Origin: Mitsuaria sp. PDC51 | GTDB lineage: Bacteria > Pseudomonadota > Gammaproteobacteria > Burkholderiales > Burkholderiaceae_C | DNA length: 64,000 nucleotides | Assembly: GCF_900113225.1 (NCBI RefSeq) | Contig: NZ_FOZE01000002.1 | Coordinates: forward strand, 124,001 to 188,000 | Reading direction: 5' to 3' | Shown: positions 16,761 through 55,541 of the stretch, in pieces | How positions within the stretch are numbered: the stretch's first letter is position 1 | How the letters are laid out: each line of letters starts with the position of its first letter | Notes under the pieces: generated by a model | Told to the model about the DNA's origin: nothing | Database searches by the model: none | Seen by the model: only the letters and a program-made list of their open reading frames with translations | Position numbers and translations under genes: made by a program

Positions 16761-19700
16761 ATGAGCGATCCCCGCGACGACCTCCCGCCGCCCGCGCCCT
16801 CCGGCACGACGCCCGCTGCCGCGCCCGTGCCTGCTGGCCCCACCAACCCGACCGACGACGGCGACGCGGCCCGACGGCTGCGCCGTCGGCGACGCGGCCG
16901 CGGCCTGCTGTGGGTGCTGCTGGCCGTGCCGGTGCTGGTGGGCCTGCTGCTGCTGGCGCTGGTCTGGGCGCTGAAGACGGAAGGCGGCACGGCCTACGTG
17001 CTCGCGAAGGTGCCGGGGCTGACGCTGCAGCAGGCGCGTGGTCGCCTGCTGGGCGACTTCGACGTCGACCGCGCCGAGCTGGTGTTGCCCGGCACCGAGG
17101 ACCGCATCGTCCTGGAGCAGCTGCAGTGGCGCAATGTGCGGCTGGCCTGGAACCGGTCGCCGCTGCTGTGGGGCGAGGTCCGGGCGGACCGGCTGGCCGT
17201 CGCGCGGCTGCGGGTGCAGATGGCGCCCAGCGCGTCGACCGAGCCGGCGAAGCCGCCGCTGAGCCTGCTGTCGCCGGTGGCCATCACGATCGCCGACCTC
17301 GAGATCGGCGAGCTCTTCGCGCCCGGCCTCGACCAGCCCCTGCGCGGCCTGCGCGGCAGCGCGGCGCTGGGCAGCGACGGCGGCCAGCAGCACGCGCTGA
17401 CGGTCAGGTCGCTGGCCTGGCAAGGACTGACCCTCGCCGGCGAGGCCCGCATCGCGACGCGCGACGACCTGAAGCTCGCCAGCCGCTGGACGCTGAGCCA
17501 GCCCACCGGCGAGCTGCCGTGGACAGCGCCGTTCCAGCTGGACGGACCGCTCGCGGACCTGACACTGAAGGGATCGCTCGAGGCGGCGAAGCAGCGGCTG
17601 CAGGTGCAGGCGCGGCTGCAGGCCTTCGCGCCCTTCCCCGTCGCCCAGCTGCAGGCACGAGCGCAGGACCTGGACCTGGCCGCGCTGCTGCCCGGCACCG
17701 AAGGCGTGCCGCGCACCGGCCTGACCGGCCTGGTCACGATGACGCCGAACGCCGACCGGTCGCTGAGCGTCAAGGCCGACCTGGACAACGGCGCGGCCGG
17801 CCGCCTCGACCAGGATCGCCTGCCGCTGCGCGCGCTCCAACTGGACCTGTTGCTGGACCCGTCGAACTGGACCCGGCTGCGCCTGCCGCGGCTCGACGCG
17901 CAGCTGGCCGGCGGCGGTCGGCTGCAGGCCGTCGGCCAGACCAGCCAATCGGCCGGCAGTGCGCTGACGCTGCGCCTGACCGGCCTGGACAGCCGCCAGA
18001 TCGATGCGCGATGGCCGCTGGTCCAGGCCCGCGGCGAATTGAAGCTGGGCACCCCGGCAAGCCTGGCCGCGCGGGGCGCCGACCCGGTCCTGACGGTCGA
18101 GGGCGACTTGGCCGGCGTGCTGGGACAGGGCAAGCTGCAAGCGCCGCTGGAGGTGACGCTGGCGGCCGAGCTCCGGCAGCGGTCCGTCGCGCTGCAGCGG
18201 CTGCAGGCCCGCTCCGGCCCGGCGACGCTGAAGGCCGAGGGCGAGTTCACCCTCAACGAGGCGCTTTCCCTCGCCGAGGGCTGGAAGACGCGGCTGGAGG
18301 CTTCGGTGCAGGGGCTGGATCCGCGCCGCCTGAGCGCGGAGCCGCTGGCTGAAGGCGCGCTGCCGCAGGCGCTCAACGGCCGCCTGCAGGCGACGCTGCA
18401 ATCGGTGCGCGGCAGCCTCTGGCCGCAAGGCAAGGCCGAGTTCGACCTGCAGCCCAGCCAGTGGCAAGGCCTGCCGCTGAGCGGCCAGCTCCGCTACAGC
18501 CGCAACGGCGCGGCCGCGCCGGACCTGCTCGCCGACCTGAAACTGGCGGACGCGACGCTGCAGGCGCGCAGCCGCATCAACGCCTCGGCCCGCCGCGAAC
18601 AGGTCGACCTCTCGATCGAGCTGAACGCGCCGAAGCTCGCCAGCCTGCAGCCGATGCTGCGTGCCCGCTTCCCGCAGGCGACGATCGTCGGCAGCGCCCA
18701 GGCGCAGGCCAGCGTCGTGCTGGTCCAGCCCGGCGCCCGCCAGGCGCAGTACGGCAGCGACGGCAAGTGGCAGCTGCAGGGCCTGGGCCTGTCCGGCGTG
18801 CCGGGCCTGCCGGCGAATTCCGGCAGCCGGCCGGCGCTGCAGCTCGACGCCGCCTCGGGCCAGTGGTCGCTGTCCAGCCTGAAGGACGCCCGCCTCGCCT
18901 GGACGACGCAACTCCGCCAATTGCGCCTGCCGCAGCAGAGCACGCGGCTGGACGACCTGCAGCTCGAGCTGTCAGGCAGTTGGGCCCAGCATCGCCTGAC
19001 CTTGACCACGCAGGGCCAGGTCCCGCTGCCGCCGGTGCTGACGCAGCCCACCGCGACCAAGGTGGTCGCGCGCGCGCAGGCCGCGAGCGGCGCGGGCGGC
19101 ACCCTCGCCCAGACCGTGCCGCTGGACCCGCAGGGCGCTCGCGCCCGGCTCGCACTCGACGGCGCGCTGGACACCGATCCGCTGCAGGCCTGGCGCCAGG
19201 GCGCGAACTGGCAGGCCCGCAACCTGGCGCTCGCGCTGGAAGCCAGCCAGCAGCCGACGCCGCTGCTCAAGGCCGGGCCGCTGGCACTGGCGCTGCGGCT
19301 CGACCGCGGCCTCGATCCGCGGCAGGCGGCGCTGGCGCCGGGGCGGATGGAGCTGCTCGGCGCCGGCCTGCGCTGGGACCGGATGAACTGGCAGAGCTCG
19401 TCGCGGTCCGACCTGCCCTCGGGCGAATGGGACGTGCAGGCCGCGCTGGAGCCGCTGGCCGCGGCGCCGGTGCTGAACAAGCTGCAGCCGGACTTCGGCT
19501 GGGGCGGCGACCTCCAGATCGAAGGCCGCTTCAAGTCGCGTCGCGACGCGCGCGGCCTGACGGTGGACGCAATGATCGAGCGCACCCGCGGCGACCTGAC
19601 CGTCACCGACGAAGTCAGCACCCAGCGCCTGGGCTTGACCGACCTGCGCCTGGGCGTGATCGCCGACCAGGGCGTGTGGCACCTGGTGCAGGGCGTGGCC

Positions 19701-21059
19701 GGCGAGAACATGGGCGCCGTCGGCGGCGCCCTGAGCTTCCGCGCCGCCAACGCGCATGCCCTGCCGACGCCAGGCGCCAAGCTCGAAGGCGGCATCGAGG
19801 CCAAGGTCGACAACATGGGCAACTGGGGCCCGTGGCTGCCCGCCGGCTGGCGCCTGGGCGGCAGCCTCGCGGCGACGCTGAGCTTCGGCGGCACGCTGGG
19901 CGCGCCCGAGATCCGCGGTCAGGCCGGCGCGCAGAAGCTTTCGCTGCGCAATCCGCTGATGGGCGTGGACATGCAGCAGGGCGAGCTGGCGCTGACCATG
20001 AGCGGCCGCGAGGCCAGGCTGGAGAAGTTCAGCGCCCGGGCCGGCAACGGCACGGTGAACATGGACGGCACGCTGCGCTTCGGCGCCCAGCCCAGCGCCG
20101 AGCTCTCGCTGAAGGCGGACACCTTCGCGCTGCTGCAGCGCGTGGACCGACGCGTCGTCGCCACCGGCGCCGCGCAGCTCAAGGCCAGCGCGCAGCTGCT
20201 GGACCTGAAGGGCCAGTTCGTCGTCGTCGAGGGCCTCTTCGACTTCTCCCGTGGCGACGCGCCGCAGCTCGACAGCGACGTGCAGGTCGTGCGCCAGAGC
20301 GCGCCGCCCAAGGCGGTGGACGGCAGCGGCAAGCCGATGCGGCTCAAGCTGGACCTCGACCTGGACCTCGGCCGGCGGCTGCAGCTCAAGGGCTACGGCA
20401 TCGACACGCGCCTGCGCGGCTTGCTGCATGTGGCGCAGGACGGCCAGCCAAGACCGCAGATGACCGGCGAGGTCCGCAGCGAAGGCGGCACCTTCAACGC
20501 CTACGGCCAGAAGCTGGTGGTGGAGCGCGGCGTGTTCAGCTTCGTCGGGCCGCTGGACAACCCGCGGCTGGACGTGCTGGCGATCCGCCCCGGCATGGAG
20601 AACGAGGACGTGCGCGTGGGCGTGACCGTGACCGGCACGGCCAACAGCCCGCGGATCCGGCTCTACTCCGAGCCCGACATGAGCGAGACCAACAAGCTGT
20701 CCTGGCTGGTGCTGGGCCGCTCGCCGGACAACCTCGGCCGCAGCGACACCGCGCTGATGCAGCGCGCCGCGATGGCGCTGATCAGCGGCGACGGCGAGAG
20801 CGCCAGCGACAAGCTGATCCACAACATCGGCCTGGACGAGCTGTCCTTCAGCGGCGAGGGCGACGACGCGCGGGGCACCGTCGTGCGGCTGGGCAAGCAG
20901 GTGAGCCGCAACGTCTTCGTCGCCTACGAGCGCGGGTTGAATGCGACCACCGGCTCCTGGCAGGTCATCTACAAGCTCGCGCAGCGCTTCACGCTGCGGG
21001 CGCAGGCCAGCGAATACCAGCAGGGGCTGGACGTGATCTGGCAGTGGAAGTGGGAGTAG
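16761..21059 (+). CDS. tamB: Translocation and assembly module protein TamB
   Basis: This 1432-residue AsmA-like protein is anchored in the inner membrane by one helix (about residues 50-70, LWVLLAVPVLVGLLLLALVW). The long periplasmic part is made of repeated beta-strands that form a hydrophobic groove, thought to bridge to TamA or to carry phospholipids. The C-terminal 350 residues match the TamB/DUF490 domain (GTFNAYGQKLVVERGVFSF, LDVLAIRP, KLSWLVLGRSP, FVAYERGLNATTGSWQVIYKLAQRFTLR split over the end) and end in an aromatic residue cluster WQWKWE. The length is at the upper part of the family range. It lies 4 bp after tamA and is surely in the same operon. Confidence 0.92.
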   Translation: MSDPRDDLPPPAPSGTTPAAAPVPAGPTNPTDDGDAARRLRRRRRGRGLLWVLLAVPVLVGLLLLALVWALKTEGGTAYVLAKVPGLTLQQARGRLLGDFDVDRAELVLPGTEDRIVLEQLQWRNVRLAWNRSPLLWGEVRADRLAVARLRVQMAPSASTEPAKPPLSLLSPVAITIADLEIGELFAPGLDQPLRGLRGSAALGSDGGQQHALTVRSLAWQGLTLAGEARIATRDDLKLASRWTLSQPTGELPWTAPFQLDGPLADLTLKGSLEAAKQRLQVQARLQAFAPFPVAQLQARAQDLDLAALLPGTEGVPRTGLTGLVTMTPNADRSLSVKADLDNGAAGRLDQDRLPLRALQLDLLLDPSNWTRLRLPRLDAQLAGGGRLQAVGQTSQSAGSALTLRLTGLDSRQIDARWPLVQARGELKLGTPASLAARGADPVLTVEGDLAGVLGQGKLQAPLEVTLAAELRQRSVALQRLQARSGPATLKAEGEFTLNEALSLAEGWKTRLEASVQGLDPRRLSAEPLAEGALPQALNGRLQATLQSVRGSLWPQGKAEFDLQPSQWQGLPLSGQLRYSRNGAAAPDLLADLKLADATLQARSRINASARREQVDLSIELNAPKLASLQPMLRARFPQATIVGSAQAQASVVLVQPGARQAQYGSDGKWQLQGLGLSGVPGLPANSGSRPALQLDAASGQWSLSSLKDARLAWTTQLRQLRLPQQSTRLDDLQLELSGSWAQHRLTLTTQGQVPLPPVLTQPTATKVVARAQAASGAGGTLAQTVPLDPQGARARLALDGALDTDPLQAWRQGANWQARNLALALEASQQPTPLLKAGPLALALRLDRGLDPRQAALAPGRMELLGAGLRWDRMNWQSSSRSDLPSGEWDVQAALEPLAAAPVLNKLQPDFGWGGDLQIEGRFKSRRDARGLTVDAMIERTRGDLTVTDEVSTQRLGLTDLRLGVIADQGVWHLVQGVAGENMGAVGGALSFRAANAHALPTPGAKLEGGIEAKVDNMGNWGPWLPAGWRLGGSLAATLSFGGTLGAPEIRGQAGAQKLSLRNPLMGVDMQQGELALTMSGREARLEKFSARAGNGTVNMDGTLRFGAQPSAELSLKADTFALLQRVDRRVVATGAAQLKASAQLLDLKGQFVVVEGLFDFSRGDAPQLDSDVQVVRQSAPPKAVDGSGKPMRLKLDLDLDLGRRLQLKGYGIDTRLRGLLHVAQDGQPRPQMTGEVRSEGGTFNAYGQKLVVERGVFSFVGPLDNPRLDVLAIRPGMENEDVRVGVTVTGTANSPRIRLYSEPDMSETNKLSWLVLGRSPDNLGRSDTALMQRAAMALISGDGESASDKLIHNIGLDELSFSGEGDDARGTVVRLGKQVSRNVFVAYERGLNATTGSWQVIYKLAQRFTLRAQASEYQQGLDVIWQWKWE

Positions 21060-21184
21060 CGGGGCTGTAGCAGGCCTGTAGCAGACCCGTGGCGCGGCCG
21101 AGGCCGAGCGGCCGCGTGCCAGGCGCTCCTTCCATGCGAGAATCCGCCGCTTTCGCGCAGCCGCCCGCCCGGGCGCTGCGTGGG

Positions 21185-21259
21185 CTCTCCGTAGTTCAAT
21201 GGATAGAACGGCCGCCTCCTAAGCGGCAAATCTGGGTTCGATTCCCGGCGGAGGGACCA
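21185..21259 (+). tRNA. tRNA-Arg (anticodon CCU)
   Basis: A cloverleaf can be drawn by hand. The acceptor stem CTCTCCG pairs with CGGAGGG (one T-G wobble), the D arm is GTTC/GAAC, and the anticodon stem GCCGC/GCGGC closes loop CTCCTAA with anticodon CCT at 21218-21220. The T arm is CTGGG-TTCGATT-CCCGG, the discriminator base is A and CCA is encoded (21257-21259). It reads AGG codons, which are rare in this genome. Its last bases are repeated at 22405-22415, so the 3' end may have served as an integration site. Confidence 0.93.
21249..21259 (+). repeat. Direct repeat copy 1 (tRNA-Arg 3' end), candidate attachment site
   Basis: CGGAGGGACCA, the acceptor 3' strand plus CCA, recurs exactly at 22405-22415 in the same orientation. 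The match is 14 of 15 bases when extended leftwards to CCGxCGGAGGGACCA. The two copies bracket a 1.15-kb lower-GC segment with a single gene, as expected for the remnant of an element inserted into a tRNA end. Confidence 0.5.
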
Positions 21260-21368
21260 TCGGGTTTGTCCACGCGGTTTCTCGCAAACCCTGACACTCC
21301 GCCTGACCCCACATTCGCCAGGAGTCAGTGCCCCACTCGCCCCGTACTCCCGGACCGGCCCGATGGCT

Positions 21369-22295
21369 TTACGGTTTTGAGGTCCACGCGGATACGGAGT
21401 TGGAACGGAACGCGGCCTCCATCCTCTTTGAGAGCACTAGCGCCTTTTCTCGCTGAGGCGAACCTTCCGGCCACTTTGAAAGCGCATAGCTCTCAAAGCT
21501 TCCGTCGCATATTCCGGTCTGCAAGCAGGCGGTGAAGGTTCGAAGATCGTTGGAGCGCTCCGCCTCCAGCGACGTGGCGTTGAAGGAGGCAAGCAATACT
21601 GCGCGACGGAATATTTCCGCGTCCTCGGGAGCTCTGAAGTCTTCACCTTGAAACCGCGGAAGGCCGGCCAATACCACTGCTGCCGATGCGAGTTGCCCTT
21701 GTTTGGCGAGTTCAACTAGCGCTTCGCCGGTCTTCGCATTGATATTGAAAAGATCGGCACGTGCCTTGTTGTAGCTCTTCGCATAGACATCGTCTTCGCG
21801 AGCGCGGTCTGCGGGGACCTCAAGACGAAAACTGCTGCAGCGGCTTTGGACCATTTGTTGCGCCTCAATGAACCGCGCTTGGAACGCCGCAGGATCCTTC
21901 CCGAGCTTATTGGCCCGCTGGTTGGCAATGTCCGGCAGGCTACTTCGAGCAACCCGGTTCGCCTCTCGGCACTGGAAAGTCACCTGATCCGAGTTGGCGA
22001 AAGAACCAGGTGCCGACAAGGCTTGCTGCTCGGTGACAAATGCCAACGGATCAGGGCTGGACATACCTCTTGCGAGCGCCCCCACACCCGGCGGCTGTGT
22101 TGGAGTCGGCAGACGTGCGGGGGACATATCCGTTGCCCTCGGATGAGACGCTGGAGAAGCCATTTCCGTTATCGCTGCAGTTCCTCCGAGCGATGGCGCG
22201 CGCAGACTAACTGGGTCACCGTCACCGCGATATGCCCAAAGGCCCAATGCGGCTGCGCAGGCCACCAGGATGAACGAAACATGGCTTCTCTTCAT
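21369..22295 (-). CDS. Unknown exported protein in the tRNA-Arg-linked cassette
   Basis: A 308-residue protein that I do not recognise. Residues 1-22 (MKRSHVSFILVACAAALGLWAY) form a signal peptide or signal anchor. They are followed by a Pro/Ser/Ala-rich linker to about residue 85 and then a helical, charged domain with repeated helices (LPDIANQRANKLGKDPAAFQARF, TGEALVELAKQGQLASAAVVLAGLP) that looks like a Sel1/TPR-type solenoid. The cysteines C108, C153, C257 and C263 (approximate) could form disulfides in the periplasm. Base composition is clearly lower in GC than in all flanking genes, and it sits alone between the tRNA-Arg and a copy of its 3' end, so acquisition by transfer is likely. 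No clear ribosome-binding site precedes ATG 22295. Confidence 0.65.
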   Translation of the reverse strand: MKRSHVSFILVACAAALGLWAYRGDGDPVSLRAPSLGGTAAITEMASPASHPRATDMSPARLPTPTQPPGVGALARGMSSPDPLAFVTEQQALSAPGSFANSDQVTFQCREANRVARSSLPDIANQRANKLGKDPAAFQARFIEAQQMVQSRCSSFRLEVPADRAREDDVYAKSYNKARADLFNINAKTGEALVELAKQGQLASAAVVLAGLPRFQGEDFRAPEDAEIFRRAVLLASFNATSLEAERSNDLRTFTACLQTGICDGSFESYALSKWPEGSPQREKALVLSKRMEAAFRSNSVSAWTSKP

Positions 22296-22404
22296 GGGGC
22301 GCAGTTGTTTTGCTCAGCTCGTGATGCAGGACTTCGGCCAGCTCAAGCCGATCCGCAAGAGCGCGAGTGGCCTGGTGCGAGTGGCCCGACAAGCGGCTGA
22401 CCGC

Positions 22405-22415
22405 CGGAGGGACCA
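22405..22415 (+). repeat. Direct repeat copy 2, right end of the tRNA-linked cassette
   Basis: An exact copy of the last 11 bases of the tRNA-Arg gene (CGGAGGGACCA). Base composition changes close to this point: the sequence to the left is lower in GC and the cupin gene to the right has the normal high GC. It is the natural right boundary of the cassette. Confidence 0.5.
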
Positions 22416-22463
22416 CAGACGCCCCGCGCCGGTCTCGCATGGGTCTCGCGCCGCACCAACGAT

Positions 22464-22805
22464 TCAGCGCTTCAGCACGATCGTCACCAGCGCCGACGCG
22501 TCCACGACGCCGGTCACGCCGTGCACCACCCCGCCCTCCAGATAACAGAGCTGCCCCGCGCGCAGGCGCTGGCGCTGCTCGGCGCCGTCGCGTAGCACGC
22601 TCAGTTCGAGCTCGCCTTCCAGGCAATGGAGCGTAATCTCCCCGTCCACCTTGTGCGGCGGCAGCGACTTGCCCCGCGGCAGCACCACCCGCATCACCTC
22701 CAGGCCCTCCGACTTGAACAGCGCGGAGGACGGCGTCCCGGACAAGGCGGCGCCAAGCGGCGCGACATCGATCGGCTGGGCGGGGGCGGCATGCGGCAAG
22801 GCCAT
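22464..22805 (-). CDS. Cupin-domain protein
   Basis: A 113-residue single-domain cupin with a conserved beta-barrel: LPRGKSLPPHKVDGEITLHCLEGELEL carries motif 1 with His and Glu ligand candidates, and GQLCYLEGGVVHGVTG carries motif 2 with the second His. Such small cupins bind a metal ion and may act as sensors or isomerases; the substrate cannot be told. ATG 22805 has AGGAG about 7 bases upstream. It is a single gene, convergent with nothing and divergent from the processing protease. Confidence 0.82.
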   Translation of the reverse strand: MALPHAAPAQPIDVAPLGAALSGTPSSALFKSEGLEVMRVVLPRGKSLPPHKVDGEITLHCLEGELELSVLRDGAEQRQRLRAGQLCYLEGGVVHGVTGVVDASALVTIVLKR

Positions 22806-23127
22806 GGCTCTGCTCCTGAAAGGCTGACGACGGCGGCGCGGGTACGCGCCGCGGCTGGCGATCGGGCCATCATGGCACCGACCGGCGCGACGCGCACCCC
22901 CGGCGCGGCCCTGCCCTGCCGGAAGTCATCGCCCCCCGTGACGAACGGGATCGGCAAAGCGCCAGGATTGCGCGCGGTACGCGTAAAAGCGGGGTAAACC
23001 GACTTTTCATGCCGGGCCGCCTTTTTGCCCGACGCATATACTGGGAACGCCTTTGTTCCGTCCCGCGCAACGGGGACGAACAAGCGGCGCCAAGCAGCCA
23101 GGCTGTACTGATTCAAGGTTTTTCATC
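22806..23127. other. 322-bp intergenic region between cupin and processing protease
   Basis: No gene is seen here. It must hold the promoters of both divergent genes. A plus-strand TATACT at 23037-23042 is a possible -10 box for the protease gene, about 86 bp before its ATG, but no good -35 element is at the right distance. No clear operator palindrome was found. Confidence 0.4.
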
Positions 23128-53400: not shown

Positions 53401-53785
53401 GCTGGGCCTGACGCTGCGGCGGCATCCGCTGTCGCTGCTGCGGCCGATGCTGCGCGAGCAGCGCTGGATGTCGGCGCGGGAACTGAACGAGTTGCCGGAT
53501 GGCCGCCCGGCGCGCGGCTGCGGGATCGTGACGGTCAAGCAGCAGCCGGCGACGGCCAAGGGGACGATCTTCATCTCGCTGGAGGACGAGACCGGGGACA
53601 TCCAGGTCATCGTGCACCGCGCGCTGTGGCAGCGGCAGCGCCAGGTCATGCTGCATTCGCGGCTGATGGCGGTGAAGGGCAAGTGGCAGCGCAGCGGCGA
53701 GGTCCGCAACCTGATCGCCGGCCACATGGAAGACCTGACCCCGATGCTGGGACGCTTGAGGACGGAGAGCCGGGATTTTCACTGA
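50486..53785 (+). CDS. dnaE2: Error-prone DNA polymerase III alpha subunit DnaE2
   Basis: A 1099-residue C-family polymerase that carries out mutagenic lesion bypass. The PHP domain starts FSFLKGASWPEELVERAKELGYRALAITDE (in part). The catalytic aspartates lie in PDIDIDFEHERREEV near residue 400, and the fingers/HhH and OB-fold parts follow (GTIFISLEDETGDIQVIV). The length is typical for DnaE2, shorter than DnaE1. It lies 12 bp after imuB and ends the cassette. SOS control is by the LexA box before imuA. Confidence 0.95.
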   Translation: MTAPPALPAAALPALPALPDYAELRCLSNFSFLKGASWPEELVERAKELGYRALAITDECSMAGIVRAHVAAKQHGLKLLVGSQFRIDPRDGAGPDEAAPFTLVALACNLNGYGNLCQLISRLRRSADKGSYRCTIDDIGPQALDDCVVIACADRHAAAAPLLAMSRWLLSRFTGRCWLGVTQTRELDDESRLLRLREAAALTEIPLVAVGDVTMHVRSRKPLQDVLTATRLGRPLTECGQALDRNAERHLRARGRLGLAFPAELLAETLRVAARCEFKLDELRYHYPSEVVPDGETPASHLRRLTYEGAGRRWPDGIPPAVSEQIERELALIEELRYEHYFLTVADIVHFARSQGILCQGRGSAANSIVCYCTHVTEVDPQRMQVLFERFISKERNEPPDIDIDFEHERREEVIQYLYRKYTRERAALAAVVISYRVKSALRDVGKALGFEPETLDTLCGNHQWWDGQTIDAERLRESGLDANDLAVRQLVEITSELLGFPRHLSQHPGGFVLTQGPLTRMVPVENASMPDRTVIEWDKDDLDAVGLLKVDVLGLGMLTAIRKTLDFIGKRQRAPFEVKDIPAEDQATYKMIQRAETIGVFQIESRAQRSMLPRLKPEKFYDLVIEVAIVRPGPIQGGMVHPYLQRRQGLEPVVYPSGLESVLDRTLGVPVFQEQVMQIAMIAAGFTGGEADELRRSMAAWKRKGDLGKYREKLIEGMRARDYPVSFAEQIFEQIKGFSEYGFPESHAASFALLVYTSSWLKKHRTAEFLAGMLNAQPLGFYSPSQLVQDARRSGVEVRPPDVMHSDWDCTLERADGRVIRPTRRGKDTEALDARPLDQDGIAQDEDGDPYLESDEALAIDAAPVAVRLGLRLVKGLQQASAAAICLERRRGPFNDAEDLARRTGLNQQQMTTLAAGDALTSLSGHRRQQMWDAAAQHAPPPLLSTAPVQEDFLALPQAPEGEEIVFDYASLGLTLRRHPLSLLRPMLREQRWMSARELNELPDGRPARGCGIVTVKQQPATAKGTIFISLEDETGDIQVIVHRALWQRQRQVMLHSRLMAVKGKWQRSGEVRNLIAGHMEDLTPMLGRLRTESRDFH

Positions 53786-53794
53786 GTCCCTGGG

Positions 53795-54190
53795 TCAAGG
53801 CTGACGCGCGCTCAGGCCCATGTGGGTCAGCTTGCGAATCGCTCGACGATCGAAAGTCACGAATGTCTCGCCACCTCGTCGACGTCCCTCACAGGCGATC
53901 ACACCGTCCGAGAAATCTCCACCCGCCTGCAAGAGGTCCAGTCCCGCATCGACGATCTCGCCATCAAGGTCGATCCGGGGAAGCCCCAGCAGTCCACTGA
54001 TGGCCTTGTGGATGTCTCCTGAATCAAAACGGTAGCGCGTCCTCAAGACCCAGAACAGCTCACAAAGGCTTGAGACGGCGATCACGATCCGTTCTGCATC
54101 ACGAAACAAGTTCCGAACCATCATCTCTTGCTCGGGCGCATCGCCAACCACCAGACGCACGAGCAGGTTGGTGTCAGCGGTGATCCGCAT
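53795..54190 (-). CDS. PIN-domain ribonuclease toxin, VapC type
   Basis: A 131-residue PIN-fold endoribonuclease, probably a toxin that cleaves tRNA or other RNA. Acidic active-site residues are D6 (ADTNLL), E44 (LCELFW), D92 or D95 (GDFSDG) and D114 (FDRRA). Start ATG 54190 shares one base with the stop of the antitoxin gene (TGATG); a GTG one codon earlier is possible. GC content is lower than in flanking genes, as is usual for mobile toxin-antitoxin loci. Reads convergently towards dnaE2. Confidence 0.87.
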   Translation of the reverse strand: MRITADTNLLVRLVVGDAPEQEMMVRNLFRDAERIVIAVSSLCELFWVLRTRYRFDSGDIHKAISGLLGLPRIDLDGEIVDAGLDLLQAGGDFSDGVIACEGRRRGGETFVTFDRRAIRKLTHMGLSARQP

Positions 54191-54465
54191 CACCGCCGCC
54201 CCGCCCAGCCGTCCTCGATCGCTTTCCGGATCTGCTTCAGCGAAAGCGGCTTCTTCTGCTTGCGCGGCCGATCCCGAAGCATGCCAGCCACGCTGTCCAC
54301 TTGACTCGTCCGCCGCTCAAGGTGCAGATAGACCGTGCCATTCGCCCAGAAGTCCACATCGATGCACTCCCCGGGAAGCAAGCCCAGGTGCTCTATCACC
54401 TCGGCGGGCAGCATCACTTGATCGATAGAACCACGCGTGTCGATCTTCATCCTGGCCTTTTTCAT
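54190..54465 (-). CDS. AbrB/MazE-fold antitoxin, VapB type
   Basis: A 91-residue antitoxin. The N-terminal swapped-hairpin AbrB domain (ARMKIDTRGSIDQVMLPAEVI) binds DNA, and the C-terminal helix (KKPLSLKQIRKAIEDGW) should bind and inhibit the PIN toxin. AAGGAGCTTCCG stands directly before ATG 54465 and fixes this start; an ATG 7 codons upstream has no ribosome-binding site. Such pairs are usually autoregulated by the complex. Overlaps the toxin gene by one base. Confidence 0.85.
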   Translation of the reverse strand: MKKARMKIDTRGSIDQVMLPAEVIEHLGLLPGECIDVDFWANGTVYLHLERRTSQVDSVAGMLRDRPRKQKKPLSLKQIRKAIEDGWAGRR

Positions 54466-54731
54466 CGGAAGCTCCTTGGCACTCATGGAATGCGCTTGAG
54501 GTCGGAAGCCTAGCCCCGCACGCCATCGAAAAACCGCCTCTCCCCCTGACTTCCGTCAACGGTGGGAGAGAACGCGCGGCCTCCCCCTGCGGATCCCTCG
54601 GCTGTAGGTTCCGTCCGACGGCGCAATGCGTCCTCCGGGGGGTACCCAAGGGGTCGGTCCTTGCGGAAAGATCGGCTCAATGGTCCTCATGCCGACCCGC
54701 CCGTTCCGCTGGCGTGGCCGGCCCCGACATC

Positions 54732-55541
54732 ATGAAAAAGATTGCCGTCCGTGCCCGCGCGCTGCCCGTCGCGGCGCCGCTCATCCCGTCGCCCTCCTGG
54801 GCGCTGCTCGGCATCGAGCCGCTGCGTGCCGCGATGGAATACGCCAGCTGCCGCCTGATGGACCGCAGCGGTCATCCGCCCGGCGACGGTCATCCCGTCA
54901 TCGTGTTCCCCGGCCTGGCGGCCGACGCGCAGTCGATCGCGCCGCTGGTGGGCTTCTGCCATGGCCTCGGCTACGCGGCGCGCGACTGGGGCCGCGGCCT
55001 GAACACCGGGCCGGTGGGGAACATCGACCGCTGGCTCGACGCCCTCGCCGCCGACATCGAGGCGCTGGTCGCCGACCAGCCGCAGGCGGTCTCGCTGGTC
55101 GGCTGGAGCCTGGGCGGCATCTACGCGCGCGAGATCGCCAAGCGCATCGCGCTGCCCGTCCGGCAGGTCATCACGATCGGCACGCCGATCACCGGCGAGG
55201 CGGCGCAGACCAACGTCAGCCTGCTCTACCGCTGGATCAACGGCGCGCTGCCGGTGCTGGACGAGGACTTCAAGGCGCGCCTCCTGGCCGCACCCCAGGT
55301 GCCGACCACGGCCATCTACAGCCGCAGCGACGGCGTCGTCGCCTGGCAGGCCTGCGTGCAGCGCGAGGACCATCCGATGATCGAGAACGTCGAGGTCGAC
55401 GGCAGCCACTGCGGCCTGGTGTGGAATCCCGCGGTGCTGAAGGTGGTCGCCGACCGGCTCGCCCATGCGCCCGGCGCGTGGCGCCCCTATGGCGACGCCA
55501 CCGAGGCGAAACCCGCGCGCGCCGTCCAGTCGCTGAACTGA
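54732..55541 (+). CDS. Alpha/beta hydrolase
   Basis: A 269-residue hydrolase. The nucleophile elbow GWSLGG has Ser126, the oxyanion region is PVIVFPGLAADAQS, an Asp is available in YSRSDGVVAW and a catalytic His in GSHCGLVWN. It resembles lipase/esterase-like proteins with a lid. The N-terminal 25 residues are a basic/hydrophobic stretch, not a clear signal peptide. ATG 54732 (MKKIAVR) is used; a GTG six codons upstream is in frame. Its substrate is unknown. The 266-bp region upstream holds no gene. Confidence 0.82.
   Translation: MKKIAVRARALPVAAPLIPSPSWALLGIEPLRAAMEYASCRLMDRSGHPPGDGHPVIVFPGLAADAQSIAPLVGFCHGLGYAARDWGRGLNTGPVGNIDRWLDALAADIEALVADQPQAVSLVGWSLGGIYAREIAKRIALPVRQVITIGTPITGEAAQTNVSLLYRWINGALPVLDEDFKARLLAAPQVPTTAIYSRSDGVVAWQACVQREDHPMIENVEVDGSHCGLVWNPAVLKVVADRLAHAPGAWRPYGDATEAKPARAVQSLN

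Follow-up and report, generated by a model that had tools for sequence, protein, structure and literature searches.

The window, by which we mean the whole 64-kb stretch of DNA that was analysed, contains a single tRNA gene, a tRNA-Arg(CCU) gene at 21185-21259 on the plus strand (ARAGORN; Rfam RF00005, 61.8 bits), and the low-GC DNA behind it closes with a second copy of the tRNA 3' end. The question raised by this locus is whether these 1.16 kb are a small mobile element in their own right or the residue of a larger one; the original prediction had named both options, a minimal tRNA-targeted element and an island remnant that has lost its integrase. The final 11 bases of the tRNA gene (CGGAGGGACCA), which comprise the 3' acceptor strand, the discriminator and CCA, are present twice in the window, as a proximal copy at 21249-21259 and a distal copy at 22405-22415, both on the plus strand and 1,156 bp apart. 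The direct repeat is thus as originally described, including its extension to 14 matches out of 15 (CCGGCGGAGGGACCA / CCGCCGGAGGGACCA), and the 11-bp copy starts at the junction of the T and acceptor stems. The claim that such a match is unlikely to arise by chance also held: two copies were seen in none of 100 dinucleotide-preserving shuffles of the window (mean 0.10, largest 1), and base composition predicts 0.0016 copies per 2 kb of one strand. The 5.85-Mb genome contains the pattern four times, against six for a control in which it was read backwards, so it is no genome-wide repeat and the distal copy is not a member of a dispersed family. The tRNA is the only known RNA that Rfam recognises in 21000-22600. 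A hairpin-forming GGGTTTG...CAAACCC lies right after it at 21265-21293 (z -1.1, not significant).

The locus is flanked on the left by a tamB homologue (16761-21059, plus strand; PF04357 TamB, E 3e-58) and on the right by a cupin gene (22464-22805, minus strand; PF07883, E 3e-7). Between the repeat copies the GC content drops, as had been noticed: when the 64 kb are scanned in 1-kb windows (step 100), the six lowest GC values, 0.594-0.613 against a mean of 0.703 over all windows, belong to those that start at 21001-21501. A second low-GC stretch lies at 53501-54800 (1-kb windows of 0.615-0.625). The gene between the copies, here called B (21369-22295, minus strand), has a GC content of 0.586 and a GC3 of 0.605. 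The corresponding means for 40 called genes of more than 150 codons, a reference that leans native as the gene caller was trained on native genes, are 0.706 (sd 0.032) and 0.929 (sd 0.028). B is therefore compositionally foreign (GC3 0.61 vs 0.93). No integrase was found among the open reading frames between the copies, in agreement with the original prediction; B and a fragment of an stbB gene were all that was recognised there. The host genome has no match at E <= 0.001 to the Arm-DNA-bind_3 profile, the one integrase family searched (as a control, the profile matched in 2 of 14 known genomes). With no integrase inside it, we file the unit as the remnant of a tRNA-targeted island and not as an active island. 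A scan of 21100-22850 returned no promoter-like site, and one terminator-like site compared with 1.5 in shuffles.

The locus was compared across 16 genomes of the genus, own genome included, which represent different species and not strains of one. The tamB end was present in all 16. In six of them (G002, G004, G006, G007, G008 and G012) the site is empty: the tRNA is directly followed by the cupin gene, with the last matched cupin codon 5-82 bp behind the same tRNA. Foreign DNA stands between tRNA and cupin in the window and in G003. The remaining eight genomes are not simple comparisons. No match to the cupin was detected at the locus in G001 and G014, and G009 has other genes there, named by eye as sensor-like and ABC-transporter-like. 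In the other five (G005, G010, G011, G013 and G015) the tRNA-Arg(CCU) gene is another one and is inverted, an apparent replacement of the tRNA; in these genomes (L051, L053, L054, L055 and L057) it lies near tamB or ctp and is of the sequence type GGCCCTATGG... or CTCTCCGTAGCAC... The original prediction had proposed this search for empty sites and had named two results that would speak against an insertion, a gene at the locus shared by all relatives and a composition like that of the genome; neither was obtained.

The 48 bp between the distal repeat copy and the cupin gene (22416-22463, plus strand) correspond to the chromosomal spacer that stands behind the tRNA at empty sites. This spacer can be locally aligned with that of G003 (none of 500 base shuffles scored as well) and that of the empty site in G008 (3 of 500), while it has no significant match to those of G002, G004, G006 and G007, and that of G012 (6 bp) is too short. 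This suggests that the distal 11 bp most likely mark the former end of the tRNA, as the attR remnant of an element whose attL side is the tRNA gene.

G003 is the best match at this locus, with 91% identity over the tamB end and the tRNA, and its insertion of about 6 kb (L042) begins at the same base as that of the window. At its far side the tRNA end recurs as a perfect 20-bp repeat (GATTCCTGTCGGAGGGACCA). Beside the tRNA lies an N-terminal remnant of an integrase (Arm-DNA-bind_3, E 4e-9), and the element (L042:3800-9850) also holds an SRAP gene, an IS3-type transposase and proteins of 194 and 290 amino acids with signal-like N termini. The two insertions share their left-end sequence (21260-21287, plus strand; 24 of 28 positions identical), and none of the six empty sites shows it after the tRNA; a search of 399 genomes of the family, a sample to which G003 does not belong, found the 25-base core of this left end (up to three mismatches) only in G000. 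Both also carry a cargo protein with a signal-like N terminus, and the similarity of the 290-residue protein of G003 to the B profile spans just 35 columns (probability 84%). The G003 element is unlike the window in its longer repeat, its integrase fragment, the SRAP gene and the IS3-type transposase. A search with 23 bp of the tRNA end revealed further users of the same tRNA: this pattern matched 11 stretches of ten viral contigs, four of them with a full tRNA. L100, one of the four, has a complete integrase (Arm-DNA-bind_3, Phage_int_M and Phage_integrase) that begins 166 bp behind the tRNA, and another stretch of the same contig (L094) carries the other copy of the tRNA end. These contigs were retrieved with the 23-bp pattern, so the repeat length in them is no evidence. 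Together with the G003 element, they indicate that tRNA-Arg(CCU) is an ordinary target.

The segment between B and the distal repeat copy (22296-22404) had no match among plasmids and phages. It contains part of the 3' portion of an stbB gene, on the strand opposite to B. Positions 22310-22366 (plus strand) share 91% identity over 57 bp with the 3' portion of a G012 gene (contig C22; E 2e-16), and after a 13-bp insertion the fragment continues at 22380-22399 (plus strand; 17 of 20 positions identical, in order). The match ends about 90 bp short of the gene end, and none of 500 shuffles equalled it. Scoring 207.7 bits against the NF041292 StbB cut-off of 200, the G012 gene qualifies as stbB, and it lies near a primase gene and the P2-like tail genes GpU and GpD (L122:1-10505). 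A search with the fragment that scored eight candidates in each of 100 genomes matched four, own genome included, two of them over just 27 bp of a gene that by eye is regulator-like. On a viral contig (L123), an StbB with a 93% match is followed by a small open reading frame, a 368-aa frame that by eye resembles a tyrosine integrase, a tRNA-Ser and a host gene. The window fragment is 88-91% identical to the stbB 3' parts of L122 and L123. Given the gene order of L123, a deletion running from within stbB to attR would take out an integrase placed there.

StbB relatives were found in 1,478 of 72,556 plasmid records and in none of 50,697 phage records; here the gene occurs in a P2-like prophage region and on one viral contig. 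P2-like prophage DNA (L122:1-10505, L123) can therefore carry this plasmid-type gene, near a primase. If the unit is a prophage remnant, the stbB fragment would be its sole candidate phage gene. Unlike the window, L123 lies at a tRNA-Ser, and no homologue of B was found in the fetched parts of L122 and L123. The left end of the unit, moreover, resembles that of G003. In view of these three points, the remnant may combine parts of several elements, and the stbB piece could have been acquired later. As judged from its sequence, the right arm consists of a disrupted mobile-element gene, as would be expected of a collapsed island and not of a purpose-built minimal element.

The tRNA gene itself looks chimeric. 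The ten other tRNA-Arg(CCU) genes of the same type at this locus in the genus have the T stem ACAGG/CCTGT, whereas the window gene has CTGGG/CCCGG. It differs from the tRNA of G007 at five positions, all in the T stem and none elsewhere. Its last 49 nucleotides (21211-21259, plus strand) are identical to those of a tRNA-Arg(CCU) gene in a Roseateles MAG (L116), while the 5' parts of these two genes differ at six positions. CTGGGTTCGATTCCCGG occurs once in the host genome, and the window T arm has no other exact copy there, so that gene conversion by a second tRNA gene of this genome is disfavoured. The 23-bp T-arm pattern was found in three stretches of genome_contigs, namely L116 and two others (L115, from a Burkholderiales MAG, and L117, from a Betaproteobacteria MAG) that have the T stem CCAGG/CCCGG and no evident island behind the tRNA. 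A 26-base T-arm pattern found no match in viral_contigs. In the Roseateles MAG, the GC content is about 70% for most of the kilobase before the tRNA and 55-60% for some 6.4 kb behind it. The 8 kb fetched there contain one copy of the core and no second one to mark a far end. In this low-GC DNA (L116:1-6775, minus strand), open reading frames were noted by eye that resemble a C5 DNA methyltransferase and a Vsr endonuclease.

The simplest account of the mosaic tRNA would be that the element brought its own tRNA 3' end and that the crossover took place in the anticodon arm, which PMC4383910 lists among the known subsites. The 49-nt block would then have been supplied by the element, and with a crossover at that position the displaced end would at first have been longer than 11 bp and later cut by a deletion. 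The two tRNA alleles do not differ in these 11 bases, and the distal copy therefore cannot tell which of them was displaced. The T stem could instead have changed vertically, through compensatory point changes that had nothing to do with the insertion, an alternative that concerns the tRNA swap alone and is compatible with the rest of our interpretation. T stems do vary among these genes, as in L115 and L117 and in G005 (CCAGG/CCTGG), and a crossover at the T/acceptor junction, exactly where the distal copy starts, could have left the resident T stem in place. Five changes relative to G007 that all fall in the T stem, and 49 nt shared exactly with one other tRNA that has six differences in its 5' part, argue against vertical change, which we consider unlikely though by no means far-fetched.

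Taken together, these results lead us to interpret the 1.16-kb unit as the decayed remnant of a larger tRNA-targeted integrative element (probability roughly 0.86). A larger element (a prophage, a satellite or an ICE-like element) would have entered tRNA-Arg(CCU) by means of a tyrosine integrase. Its own tRNA 3' end would have replaced the resident one, giving a complete tRNA with a foreign T stem, while the resident 3' end came to lie at the element's other extremity. Deletions would afterwards have stripped the integrase and nearly all other genes, leaving the left end of the element, the cargo gene B, the final 11 bp of the displaced tRNA end and a piece of an stbB that presumably came with the same element. 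Integration, repair of the tRNA by the element's copy and decay by deletion would in this way explain every part of the locus. The remnant probably cannot move on its own.

The unit resembles the tRNA-targeted genomic islands of the Islander class, as these are characterised in PMC4383910, in its complete tRNA, the foreign DNA behind it, the displaced tRNA 3' end downstream in the same orientation and the empty site in relatives. It differs from them in having no integrase (B and the stbB fragment are all that was recognised in it), and the Islander filters would reject it, its 1,156 bp lying below the length range of 2-200 kb given in that source. A second comparison is with cis-mobilizable elements (CIMEs), described in PMC5704250 as elements that have lost their integration and transfer genes and whose remains are bounded by att repeats. 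Like these, the unit has no integration or transfer genes among the open reading frames between its repeat copies. Its distal att copy, in contrast, is 11 bp long (20 bp in G003) and adjoins a broken gene, and mobilisation in cis by a related element would be speculative.

That the unit is a true minimal, non-autonomous element of the CIME type, with working attL and attR sites and excised or mobilised by an integrase acting in trans, is improbable. The distal copy is an exact 3' acceptor strand with discriminator and CCA, and the T/acceptor junction at which it begins is an Islander crossover subsite according to PMC4383910, as such an element would have it. Its right arm, however, would be a truncated stbB interrupted by a 13-bp insertion, its repeat is about half as long as the 20 bp kept by the G003 element, the genome has no second copy of the unit (whose sole match is its own locus), and no Arm-DNA-bind_3 integrase was found in the genome, a search of one family that leaves room for a helper of another. 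Of the two options in the original prediction, the remnant of an island without integrase is therefore the one that the empty sites, the G003 element and the broken stbB favour, while the truncated gene end, the 11-bp repeat against 20 bp and the lack of an Arm-DNA-bind_3 match speak against the minimal element.

The original prediction had described the single gene of the unit as encoding an exported helical protein. The gene and the helical nature of its product were upheld, and export is likely from the N-terminal helix, a putative signal or anchor. B has 308 amino acids, in which this helix is followed by a low-confidence linker and, from about residue 70, by a confident all-helical domain in the AlphaFold model (most ten-residue blocks at 93-98, two at 87; pTM 0.75). 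Four cysteines of the helical domain are invariant in an alignment of 16 sequences, the window protein and 15 others (a short match, L076, was left out). The window protein matched no family in Pfam, NCBIfam, PHROGs or PADLOC, and the 16 aligned members gave scattered weak matches to profiles (best E 0.047 in Pfam and 0.012 in NCBIfam). The best hit among PDB sequences had an E value of 0.15, and Foldseek found no significant match for the model (PDB, best E 0.24 with a TM of 0.12; BFVD, best E 0.13). Homologues (E <= 0.001) are present in 8 of the 16 genus genomes and in at least 11 of 399 sampled family genomes, a lower bound as five candidates were scored per genome; five genus members are in this sample. 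No match was found in plasmids and phages at E <= 1, and none in genome_contigs with six short peptide patterns. A weak match in viral_contigs (L079) was discarded as chance: it lies in a long, by eye terminase-like open reading frame and matches the window protein alone, over 56 residues.

At 5 of the 15 other aligned loci, B is preceded by a gene for a second secreted-type protein (A) that overlaps its start by 4-10 bp. The pairs lie at L058:6881-8673, at L065:6836-8631 (where the overlap is counted from an internal ATG of the listed open reading frame) and on L073, L074 and L075 (minus strands). Of 199 genomes searched for A, 5 contain it, and the window's own genome is not among them. At two further loci (L112, 1333-2944, and L113), an A-like match is followed by an anchored-type protein without a match to the B profile. 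The A-B pair is sporadic in the family and belongs to no named family. At the A-B locus of G003 (L058), both flanks were matched in the five genomes tried; the A-B stretch itself had no match in them, and only the window's own B was hit. A structure attempt for A gave a mean pLDDT of 50 and was not used. A frame ending in TGA that overlaps the ATG of the window B was considered as a tail of A and dropped, as the stbB match starts at 22310 and leaves at most five codons (NNCAP).

We infer that B probably leaves the cytoplasm and stays attached to the inner membrane through its N-terminal helix, so that its helical domain, with disulfide bonds, would lie in the periplasm. Our best guess is that it once worked with the co-secreted partner A, now lost. 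Lacking both A and a promoter-like site of sigma-70 consensus type, the window B may be an orphan on its way out. A more far-reaching reading, which we regard as speculative and rather doubtful, is that A and B are the two genes of a secreted system not described so far, which has a new helical fold, may serve in exclusion or competition and is spread by tRNA-targeted elements and by other routes, and that the window retains an orphan B, even after the collapse of the element, because it is useful alone. A different possibility is that B reached the locus through ordinary recombination, homologous or illegitimate, and that the 11-bp copy arose by chance. This would be in line with the nine other B loci of the genus, which lie in unrelated surroundings and show no tRNA within the 12-16 kb retrieved for each, and with six family loci, which have none within 3.3-3.9 kb; the small number of copies expected by chance, the position of the copy exactly where the empty-site tRNA meets the chromosomal spacer, and the G003 element at the same base with a similar left end make such an origin highly improbable.

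Our interpretation of the unit as an island remnant describes an ordinary phenomenon; less ordinary are the chimeric-looking tRNA and the unnamed protein family. As an uncharacterised family of exported type, with a confident helical model and no match in two structure libraries, B is a fair experimental target. The locus is a clean worked example of a collapsed island that has left two fossils, a chimeric-looking tRNA and an 11-bp displaced tRNA end. If the element did supply the 3' part of the tRNA, T-stem chimeras could reveal past insertions even after the elements themselves have been lost.
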